Source: Bacteroidia bacterium (GTDB lineage: Bacteria > Bacteroidota > Bacteroidia > SpSt-205). Taken from it: DNA of 49,384 nucleotides. The DNA lies in the NCBI GenBank assembly GCA_025057135.1, contig JANWXY010000053.1, positions 1 through 49,384 of the forward strand. The letters are read 5' to 3'. Position 1 is the stretch's first letter. Each line of letters begins with the position of its first letter. Below the pieces are notes generated by a model, which did not search any database, was not told the origin of the DNA, and saw nothing but the letters and a program-made list of their open reading frames with translations. The translations under genes and the position numbers were made by a program. Below, one piece after another: positions 16,668-38,580 of the stretch.

Positions 16668-16749
16668 GCCGAAGTGGCGGAACTGGTAGACGCGCACGTT
16701 TCAGGGGCGTGTGGGGTTTCCCGTGTGGGTTCGAGTCCCACCTTCGGCA
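16668..16749 (+). tRNA. tRNA-Leu (anticodon CAG)
   Basis: An 82-nt cloverleaf with a seven-base acceptor GCCGAAG/CTTCGGC and discriminator A. The anticodon stem CACGT/GCGTG holds loop TTCAGGG (anticodon CAG), and the variable arm is long (TGGGG...CCC), as expected for tRNA-Leu. The T-arm is GTGGG-TTCGAGT-CCCAC. CCA is not encoded. A promoter box lies 10 nt upstream, and the next gene's own box begins 10 nt downstream. Confidence 0.95.
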
Positions 16750-16759
16750 CTGTAGGCTG

Positions 16760-16767
16760 TACATTTG
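16760..16767 (+). promoter_or_regulatory. -7 promoter box TACATTTG, N4 before GTG
   Basis: Perfect TAnnTTTG 4 nt before GTG 16772. It decides the start of the DUF1599 gene, whose frame is otherwise open through the tRNA. Confidence 0.65.
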
Positions 16768-16771
16768 TGGT

Positions 16772-17281
16772 GTGCCATTACCTGCATACACCCACTGGCA
16801 GCATATTGCACTTGATATTTTCTCTCAAAAGTATCATCAATATGGCGAAAGCTGGTCGGAGTTGTCGCTGCCGTCCCTTGTAGACATTTTGTATATCAAA
16901 GCCAGTCGTATTCGGACGCTTATGCAATCTAATGCACCAGCCGCTACGGGTGAATCTTCCCTCAACGACTGGCTCGCTCTGGCAAATTATGCCGCTCTCA
17001 CAATAGCTCGTCTCCGTCATCTCTCTCCTGACCACCTCTCGCAGATATATGCAGAGGCGGAAGCGTTATTAGAGCGTAAAAATGCCGATTACGGAAATGC
17101 GTGGCAGCATATGAGGCCTCTGGCCTTTATTGAGTTTATTCTCATGAAGCTGGCGCGCATCCGACAGATGGATGCTTCTCCCGCGACTTATGCGGATTCT
17201 ATTAGCGATAATCTGTTTGATATCATCAATTACGCTTTCCTTTACCTGAGTCGCTATGGAGATACGACTGCTACCACTTAG
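16772..17281 (+). CDS. DUF1599-family protein (two tandem copies of the domain)
   Basis: A 169-residue protein made of two similar halves. Half one has [27 protein letters not shown] and [13 protein letters not shown]. Half two has [28 protein letters not shown] and [19 protein letters not shown]....., D.I..K..RI and NY......L are the DUF1599 signature, a Bacteroidota family normally carrying two copies. Its function is not known; the spacing of acidic and Lys/Arg residues vaguely resembles MazG-like all-alpha NTP pyrophosphatases (weak inference). The GTG start follows the promoter box by 4 nt. The next membrane-protein gene overlaps its end by 26 nt. Confidence 0.8.
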
Positions 17282-36944: not shown

Positions 36945-36952
36945 TACCTTTG
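36945..36952 (+). promoter_or_regulatory. -7 promoter box TACCTTTG, N6 before ATG 36959
   Basis: Perfect TAnnTTTG 6 nt before the small membrane-protein ATG. Confidence 0.6.
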
Positions 36953-36958
36953 GCGGGT

Positions 36959-37300
36959 ATGAGATTTCTGCTGTACATCCTGCTCGGAATAGCAAGCCTA
37001 CGACCTGCCTACAGCGTCGTGAGTACTAACAATGTTCAAGTGGTCGAGTTGACTTCCGCTGAACCCGTCAAACGGAAAAGCTTCTGGCATCGCCTAAAGG
37101 AAAAAGCTCAGCGGTACTGGCAGACACTTAGTGAAAAGTTGCGTACCGCTGCTGATGACCTTGTGAGGCTACTAATCATAGCACTCATTATAGCGTTGGC
37201 GGTGAGCATCGTAGTCTGGTTTTTGCCATGGCCTCTGGATGTGTTGATAGCTACTTTGGCGCTGGTGATATTACTTATTTTCCTCCTACGCTATATTTGA
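36959..37300 (+). CDS. Small membrane protein, function unknown
   Basis: A 113-residue protein. The N-terminus is a cleavable signal or first TM (FLLYILLGIASLRPAYS). A basic amphipathic stretch follows (KRKSFWHRLKEKAQRYWQTLSEKLR), then two closely spaced TM segments (LLIIALIIALAVSIVVWFL and LDVLIATLALVILLIFLL). Small proteins of this plan are common in Bacteroidota, but I do not recognise a named family. The frame also opens at a TTG inside the promoter box, which cannot be the start. The tRNA-Arg follows after 29 nt and has its own box. Confidence 0.6.
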   Translation: MRFLLYILLGIASLRPAYSVVSTNNVQVVELTSAEPVKRKSFWHRLKEKAQRYWQTLSEKLRTAADDLVRLLIIALIIALAVSIVVWFLPWPLDVLIATLALVILLIFLLRYI

Positions 37301-37313
37301 CAATGTAAAGTAG

Positions 37314-37321
37314 TACTTTTG
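37314..37321 (+). promoter_or_regulatory. -7 promoter box TACTTTTG for tRNA-Arg/rplY
   Basis: Perfect TAnnTTTG, 8 nt before the tRNA 5' end. It is the only visible promoter for rplY as well. Confidence 0.62.
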
Positions 37322-37329
37322 CGTACTCT

Positions 37330-37403
37330 GCACCCGTAGCTCAATTGGATAGAGCACCAGACTTCGGATCTGGCGGTTGGGGGTTCGAGTCCTCCCGGGT
37401 GCG
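37330..37403 (+). tRNA. tRNA-Arg (anticodon TCG)
   Basis: A 74-nt cloverleaf with acceptor GCACCCG/CGGGTGC and discriminator G. The D-arm segment is GCTCAATTGGATAGAGC, the anticodon arm CCAGA-CTTCGGA-TCTGG (anticodon TCG) and the T-arm GGGGG-TTCGAGT-CCTCC. CCA is not encoded. The rplY ATG begins 2 nt after the discriminator base. Confidence 0.95.
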
Positions 37404-37405
37404 CT

Positions 37406-37969
37406 ATGCAGGTGTATAAGTTGAGTGGGGAACGGCGGATTCCTGATGGCACGCGTGAAGCTCGCCGCCTACGGCGGGCAGGATTGGTACCTTGTGCGCT
37501 CTATGGCAAAGGCATACAGGAAACTTTTGTTCTGCCGCAGACAGAGGCGCATAAAGTCGTTTTTACCCCTCATGTGTATTTATTTGAGATAGGTTTGGGG
37601 GAGCGGATGCATAATGCTATTCTGCGGGAGTATCAGCTTCACCCCGTGCATGATTATGTCCTACATTTAGATTTTATGGCTTGTGGGTTAGAGGATGAAG
37701 TTACGGTGGCCTTGCCGGTCAAGCTCACTGGCGTGGCTGAGGGTGTGCAAATGGGTGGAAAGCTCGTTCCGCTCACCCGACGGCTGCGTGTGCGTGGCCG
37801 CGTGAAAGATTTACCTGCTGTCTTAGAAATAGACATTTCGCCCCTAAAGCTTGGGAAAACTTTGAGTGTAGGTAAGCTCTCCTTCCCTAATCTGCAGATT
37901 GTAGCTTCCCCAGATACAGCGATTGCGCGCATTGAGATACCTCGGGCACTCCGCACCCAGCAGGGATAA
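37406..37969 (+). CDS. rplY: 50S ribosomal protein L25 (Ctc/TL5 type)
   Basis: A 187-residue long-form L25 that binds 5S rRNA. The N-terminal L25 domain (SGERRIPDGTREARRLRRAGLVPCALYGKG) is followed by the C-terminal TL5-type domain. That includes HPVHDYVLHLDFMA, VKLTGVAEGVQMGGKLVPLTRRLRVRGRVKDLP and the DISPLKLGKTLSVGKL segment. The ATG comes 2 nt after tRNA-Arg, leaving no room for a promoter or ribosome site, so the mRNA is probably released by tRNA 3' processing. The DUF4230 gene overlaps its stop by 1 nt (TAATG). Confidence 0.92.
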   Translation: MQVYKLSGERRIPDGTREARRLRRAGLVPCALYGKGIQETFVLPQTEAHKVVFTPHVYLFEIGLGERMHNAILREYQLHPVHDYVLHLDFMACGLEDEVTVALPVKLTGVAEGVQMGGKLVPLTRRLRVRGRVKDLPAVLEIDISPLKLGKTLSVGKLSFPNLQIVASPDTAIARIEIPRALRTQQG

Positions 37970-38580
37970 TGCGCGCCTTCCTGCGCTATGGTATAGTTGG
38001 GATTATCGGTGTAGTCGCGGGTTTATTTTTGGCGTATTATATCAAGCGTTCGGCTCCGAGAGAGAACGCTCCCCCTCCCTCAGTTGAGGCGCATGCGATA
38101 CTTATTCAGCGAATCGCTGAATTGGGACAAATGGAGCTTCTACAGTATCAGACTCGGGACGTTGTGCGCAAGGAATGGACGTATGTTGTCCCTTTTACCA
38201 GTTCTCGTTTGCTGATTGTGGTGGCAGGGGAGGGGCGAGTTTGCATGGATTTTTCTGCGGTGAAGGTTTTAGAAGCTGACTGGAATAGCCGTTCTGTCAA
38301 ACTGGGCTTGCCCCCACCGACGCTCTGCGTGGTGCGGATAGACCCTTCCCAATCACAGGTGTATGATGCAGATTTTTCCGTCATAGAATGGTGGCAAGGA
38401 AACGAAGCTGATAGGGTGCGAGAGGCGCTATCAGCGGCTCAGGAGACACTTCGGGTACAGCTTATTCGGCAGCTTCCCGTGGAGTCTGCGCAGAGGCAGG
38501 CGGAGACTTTGCTGCGCAGCTTTTGCGAAGGTATGGGATGGAAAACAGTGTCTTTTGTTCCGCTTTCCCGAGACAGTTGA
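37969..38580 (+). CDS. DUF4230-family membrane-anchored protein
   Basis: A 203-residue protein with one N-terminal TM (YGIVGIIGVVAGLFLAYYI), then a soluble domain. ILIQRIAELGQMELLQYQTRDVV is the DUF4230 signature (I..LG.L......). It is followed by beta strands (RLLIVVAGEGRVCMDFSAVKVLEAD) and a C-terminal amphipathic helix. The family is common in Bacteroidota and Firmicutes with no assigned function. Topology puts the domain outside the cytoplasm. It is coupled to rplY by a 1-nt overlap, which gives no functional clue. A convergent folA gene ends 11 nt downstream. Confidence 0.75.
   Translation: MRAFLRYGIVGIIGVVAGLFLAYYIKRSAPRENAPPPSVEAHAILIQRIAELGQMELLQYQTRDVVRKEWTYVVPFTSSRLLIVVAGEGRVCMDFSAVKVLEADWNSRSVKLGLPPPTLCVVRIDPSQSQVYDADFSVIEWWQGNEADRVREALSAAQETLRVQLIRQLPVESAQRQAETLLRSFCEGMGWKTVSFVPLSRDS

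Follow-up and report, generated by a model that had tools for sequence, protein, structure and literature searches.

About a third or more of the terminal tRNA genes in one lineage of Bacteroidia are followed, within a few nucleotides, by the start codon of a protein-coding gene. The arrangement is exemplified here by rplY (ribosomal protein L25), whose ATG lies two nucleotides behind a tRNA-Arg(UCG) gene in the stretch of DNA that was analysed (the window, 49,384 nucleotides, contig JANWXY010000053.1 of assembly GCA_025057135.1; all features described below are on its forward strand). On comparative grounds we consider it likely that RNase Z cleavage behind the discriminator base, itself inferred, releases such genes as leaderless mRNAs, which would amount to a bacterial form of tRNA punctuation. 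The genome with the window (2.08 Mb, 98% complete) belongs to a Bacteroidia genus whose hot-spring origin we read from the names of its relatives (the MAGs KatS3mg025, KatS3mg026, SKYB95 and SKW103).

The tRNA-Arg/rplY junction

The tRNA-Arg gene (anticodon TCG in the DNA), in which CCA is not encoded, was placed at 37330-37404 by ARAGORN and at 37330-37403 by RF00005, the latter making G at 37403 the discriminator. The junction reads ...CGGGTGC-G-CT-ATGCAGGTG, with the CT spacer following the discriminator and the rplY ATG at 37406. The initial annotation had given the tRNA end, the start codon and the 2 nt between them, and its coordinates are exact when held against ARAGORN, RF00005 and the sequence. 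The ORF at 37406-37969 encodes a protein of 187 aa, in which the L25 domain (PF01386) and the TL5/CTC C-terminal domain (PF14693) both score above the Pfam cut-off (68.6 and 63 bits). The start at 37406 is correct because the PF01386 match begins at residue 6, with profile position 1 (E 6.5e-19). From the upstream stop to 37406 there is no alternative in-frame ATG, GTG or TTG. At the other end of the gene, the rplY stop codon overlaps the start codon of a DUF4230 protein gene (37969-38580) in a TAATG at 37967-37971, an overlap that suggests translational coupling; the DUF4230 gene would be the second gene of the predicted released mRNA.

The ten remaining species of the genus also have rplY, with L25 identities of 72-80% to the query, and the order tRNA-Arg(UCG), CT, ATG is found in 11/11 species, with a spacer free of variation and indels. 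At conserved residues, the third codon positions of rplY have a mean identity of 42%, i.e., they are saturated. Identical junctions in 11/11 species at such synonymous divergence exclude chance, and a two-base spacer that is invariant and without a single indel, when set against saturated synonymous sites, indicates purifying selection on the junction. Variable spacing in close relatives had been named beforehand as an outcome that would refute the link between the two genes; the tRNA-Arg/rplY distance proved constant, and that refutation failed. G012, a genome of a related family, and two other Bacteroidia have rplY behind prs and prs behind tRNA-Gln; in the present genus, prs is still found behind tRNA-Gln, and rplY comes after tRNA-Arg.

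Promoter boxes and probable leaderless starts

A Bacteroidota sigma-A -7 box, TACTTTTG, was located by pattern scan at 37314-37321, 8 nt 5' of tRNA-Arg. From the placement of the Flavobacterium -7 box at -12 to -5 relative to the transcription start site (PMC9723704), transcription is predicted to start at about 37326. The initial annotation had taken this for the only box, which is wrong, as the same scan places a second TAnnTTTG, TATATTTG, at 37292-37299, 30 nt 5' of tRNA-Arg and within the last part of the upstream ORF; the tRNA-rplY transcript may have an additional start from it. That ORF (36950-37300) has a leaderless-type promoter of its own (TACCTTTG, 6 nt, ATG), and its transcription may read through into tRNA-Arg. 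In the alignment of the 11 species, read by eye, TAnnTTTG lies ~7-10 nt 5' of tRNA-Arg in eight and ~24 nt 5' of it in two, and is absent upstream of tRNA-Arg in one (G006), where the tRNA may rely on the upstream gene for its transcription. Across the genus, the promoter upstream of tRNA-Arg is less fixed than the junction.

The leaderless pattern that had been noticed elsewhere in the window is real. When the distance from TAnnTTTG was measured for ORFs that begin with ATG and have 80 aa or more, 24 ORFs of this genome lay 3-9 nt after a box, roughly an eightfold excess over the rate at 20-59 nt, and the distances peaked at 4 nt (10 ORFs); a sample of the closed congener G005 gave 46 ORFs, roughly an elevenfold excess, and a sharp peak at 4 nt (19 ORFs). 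The same test detected no excess of short box-to-ATG distances in the distant Bacteroidia genome G047. Combined with a box at -12 to -5, a gap of 4 nt between box and ATG would make the A of the ATG the first transcribed base. Judged from these distances, leaderless mRNAs look common in this lineage, unlike in the Bacteroidota that have been studied, where short-leader mRNAs account for 3.7% (PMC7366714) and 5.5% (PMC9723704) and where a survey of 37 Bacteroidetes/Chlorobi genomes detected a leaderless signal in one, at 2.4% (PMC3160421).

Boxes of this kind also precede tRNA genes: TAnnTTTG lies 3-12 nt 5' of the first tRNAs of clusters in 27/31 and 29/34 cases, with 0.004 expected per tRNA. 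Among the genes behind tRNAs in this genome and in G005, 12 and 12 start at most 7 nt away (the first class) and 3 and 7 have their own leaderless promoter (the second); four genes per genome fit neither class by strict consensus. Genes further from the tRNA mostly carry their own TAnnTTTG. The window itself provides an internal contrast in its other tRNA, tRNA-Leu(CAG) at 16668-16749 (ARAGORN and RF00005), behind which no gene is tRNA-led; the 169-aa ORF that follows is of the second class, with a TACATTTG box, 4 nt and a GTG start at 16760-16774 (pattern scan).

tRNA-led genes across the lineage

To count such junctions, all tRNA loci of this genome (41 tRNAs) and of G005 (44 tRNAs) were used, and loci were sampled only from a sister genus (G011), the next family (G012) and G047. 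Terminal tRNAs were counted, leaving out those with another tRNA next to them, and a same-strand start at most 8 nt after the discriminator was scored; the gene starts are codon-score calls and not annotation, made on stretches around tRNAs and not on whole genomes. A start 1-7 nt after the terminal tRNA was present in 12/28 cases in this genome, 12/34 in G005, 10/21 in G011 and 5/21 in G012, and in none of the 23 terminal tRNAs of G047 (Fisher test against G047: 2e-4, 8e-4, 1.4e-4 and 0.019, respectively). With a stricter ORF filter the numbers, in the same order through G047, were 12, 12, 9, 4 and 0. The tRNA-led genes of this genome are rplY, prs, dxr, fbp, secE, ligA and those for an OsmC protein, a DUF2480 protein, a PhoD-like protein, a cytochrome c554-like protein, an outer-membrane barrel protein and a short ORF; elsewhere, tig is tRNA-led in G005, and a similar ORF and purK in G011. 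These start calls are supported by the Pfam profiles, which open within the first residues for most of the genes.

The dxr gene lies one base after tRNA-Val(CAC) in 10/10 congeners, the junction always being C and then TTG. The distance from tRNA-Gln to prs is 4-5 nt in 10/10 genomes (nine congeners and G011), but three outgroups have 10, 11 and 25 nt. For fbp, the start is within about 3 nt of tRNA-Ser(UGA) in 12/12 genomes (11 congeners and G011); the script sometimes set the discriminator one or two bases early, and correcting this by eye gives offsets of 1-3 nt. The DUF2480 gene starts 1-2 nt after tRNA-His in 8/9 genomes, the sole exception being G006, in which no tRNA precedes it.

Several other loci were seen along the way. 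In three draft genomes dxr has in-frame stops or frame breaks (L179 in G004, L182 in G009, and G007:C3), which are either assembly errors or decay. In G012, hisS (histidyl-tRNA synthetase) lies 4 nt behind tRNA-His (L112, G012:C227, ORF 731-2149), so a tRNA and its charging enzyme would share one transcript. Behind tRNA-Leu(CAA) at L077 and L159 there is a large ORF (1351 and 703 codons, counted from its first GTG) that reaches the tRNA yet lacks any ATG, GTG or TTG in the tRNA's vicinity, and whose start may be a CTG or ATT 0-6 nt after the discriminator; the gene behind tRNA-Leu(CAA) in G011 starts with TTG, 1 nt after the tRNA. A phylum-wide pattern scan of 297 genomes, intended to date the trait, was too noisy to use, and the hits in eight of the other high-count genomes were mostly ATGs that open no coding ORF. 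A few plausible tRNA-led starts occur in G262, from another class of the phylum (L234-L239), such as a tRNA-Arg(CCT) 3 nt before an epimerase-like ORF, and given these cases outside the family, the arrangement may arise repeatedly.

The same junctions could be the product of compaction only, a deletion bias having removed the spacers between tRNAs and co-transcribed genes and left the junctions tight but without function. The genomes are indeed small (about 2 Mb) and their tRNA clusters also have spacers of 1-7 nt. We nevertheless find this explanation improbable, since the spacers have not drifted (CT in 11/11 before rplY and C in 10/10 before dxr, against the saturated synonymous sites of rplY) and since compaction would allow starts to overlap the tRNA, of which none was called for the tRNAs examined, with the caveat that most scans began at the discriminator. 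The survival of leaderless promoters in front of many more distant genes, and of promoter boxes 5' of the tRNAs, also speaks against it.

RNase Z and the proposed release of leaderless mRNAs

RNase Z cuts after the discriminator (PMC7479834), and with the enzyme present the predicted cleavage point, an inference, is the discriminator/trailer boundary at 37403-37404. Most congeners have a full-length RNase Z (E about 1e-80, 298 of 302 positions), which scores slightly below the NCBIfam cut-off and whose HxHxDH metal motif is HLHADH in the two copies that were read (G001 and G004). The RNase Z of G007 is in two pieces, and no strong match to the enzyme was found in the incomplete genome G008. 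RNase J is a family of 5' exonucleases that would threaten 5'-monophosphate mRNAs, and no match to it (TIGR00649) was found in the whole genomes of G000 (this genome), G005 and G011.

Several points count against punctuation: the RNase Z scores below the cut-off, the tRNA-less DUF2480 gene of G006, the reliance of the gene starts on codon scores, a few downstream genes that start 9-150 nt away without a tight junction or a perfect box, and a property of the trailers that is a genuine difficulty. The RNase Z enzymes tested in PMC7479834 cut CCA-containing precursors after CCA, and a few trailers read CC or CCA into the ATG (in G005, secE behind tRNA-Trp, with the junction G-CC-ATG, and the DUF2480 gene; in G006, fbp); cleavage after CCA would destroy those start codons. 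Nearly every trailer opens with C, and the RNase Z enzymes that have been characterised work more slowly when cytidines follow the discriminator (PMC7479834). The idea that this C is a special leader signal was dropped, as G047, which is without tRNA-led genes, has it too.

In the mechanism that we propose, a single transcript starting from the box at 37314-37321 would contain tRNA-Arg(UCG), rplY and probably the DUF4230 gene. RNase P would trim the 5' end of the tRNA and RNase Z would cut behind 37403, giving a CCA-less tRNA, to which CCA would be added later, and an rplY mRNA with a 5'-CU-AUG end, where CU (37404-37405) is a two-nucleotide leader that by comparison is the same in 11 species. 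Ribosomes of this lineage would then initiate on the near-leaderless end, as they presumably do on many promoter-made leaderless mRNAs, and the same device would serve the other tRNA-headed genes of the family (secE, prs, dxr, fbp, ligA, tig and others). An RNase Z cut links the fixed junction, the missing box between tRNA and gene, and the tendency of this lineage towards leaderless mRNAs. The punctuation reading, which is also that of the initial annotation, appears strongly backed by the observed geometry, conservation, recurrence, promoter positions and presence of RNase Z; it is unproven by RNA, there being no transcript, RACE or ribosome data for any member. Cleavage, translation of the cleaved mRNA and the coupling of output to tRNA maturation are all inferred.

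No experimental data exclude that the uncut tRNA-mRNA is translated directly by ribosomes that bind the AUG beside the folded tRNA. We regard this as very unlikely, as the AUG is 2 nt from a stable acceptor stem, which by inference leaves no single-stranded mRNA for the 30S subunit, and the mature tRNA needs the cut anyway. Least credible of all is an unrecognised promoter within the tRNA gene with transcription starting at or near the rplY ATG, conceivable as promoters are in tRNA genes and in a lineage that uses transcription starts at start codons: the pattern scan found no TAnnTTTG between 37322 and 37406, every species has unchanging T-arm and acceptor sequence in the final 20 nt up to the ATG, and such promoters would have to exist in a dozen different tRNAs.

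If RNase Z does release these mRNAs, punctuation could operate genome-wide in this family, a broader claim that we favour with distinctly less assurance. About a third or more of tRNA transcripts would then include the mRNA of an essential or housekeeping gene (rplY, secE, prs, dxr, fbp, ligA or tig), with a translatable 5' end that comes into being only once RNase Z has processed the tRNA, and the rate of tRNA maturation would directly set the output of ribosome, translocon and nucleotide-synthesis genes. RNase Z would thus make the mRNA 5' ends of essential genes in a bacterium, and mitochondrial tRNA punctuation would have a free-living bacterial counterpart. These genes would also mark out a Bacteroidota lineage rich in leaderless mRNAs, in a phylum where such mRNAs are rare and the initiation mechanism is unusual, which would make it possible to test how start codons are recognised by its ribosomes. 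Software for gene prediction that assumes a leader may put tRNA-led starts in the wrong place.

In the literature, of which our coverage was partial, we found neither bacterial tRNA punctuation nor leaderless mRNAs made by RNase Z. The tRNA punctuation of animal mitochondrial transcripts was reportedly described by Ojala, Montoya and Attardi in 1981. There, as in our proposal, tRNA excision sets the 5' ends of mRNAs, leaders are of zero to a few nucleotides and translation is leaderless; however, mitochondria make one genome-length transcript, whereas in this free-living bacterium a -7 box precedes most tRNAs and only part of the genes are involved. The thrU-tyrU-glyT-thrT-tufB operon of E. 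coli likewise has tRNAs and a protein gene behind one promoter, with tRNA processing parting tRNA and mRNA, but tufB has a normal leader and ribosome site, whereas in this lineage the start lies 1-7 nt from the tRNA, and behind many tRNAs. The leaderless mRNAs of Actinobacteria, Deinococcus-Thermus and archaea resemble the proposed ones in having a 5' terminal start codon and no Shine-Dalgarno sequence; their 5' ends are made by transcription initiation, and those of the tRNA-led set would be made by RNase Z. Unproven by RNA as it is, a family-wide set of tRNA-punctuated leaderless genes would be a bacterial variation, and a new one, on a principle known from mitochondria.
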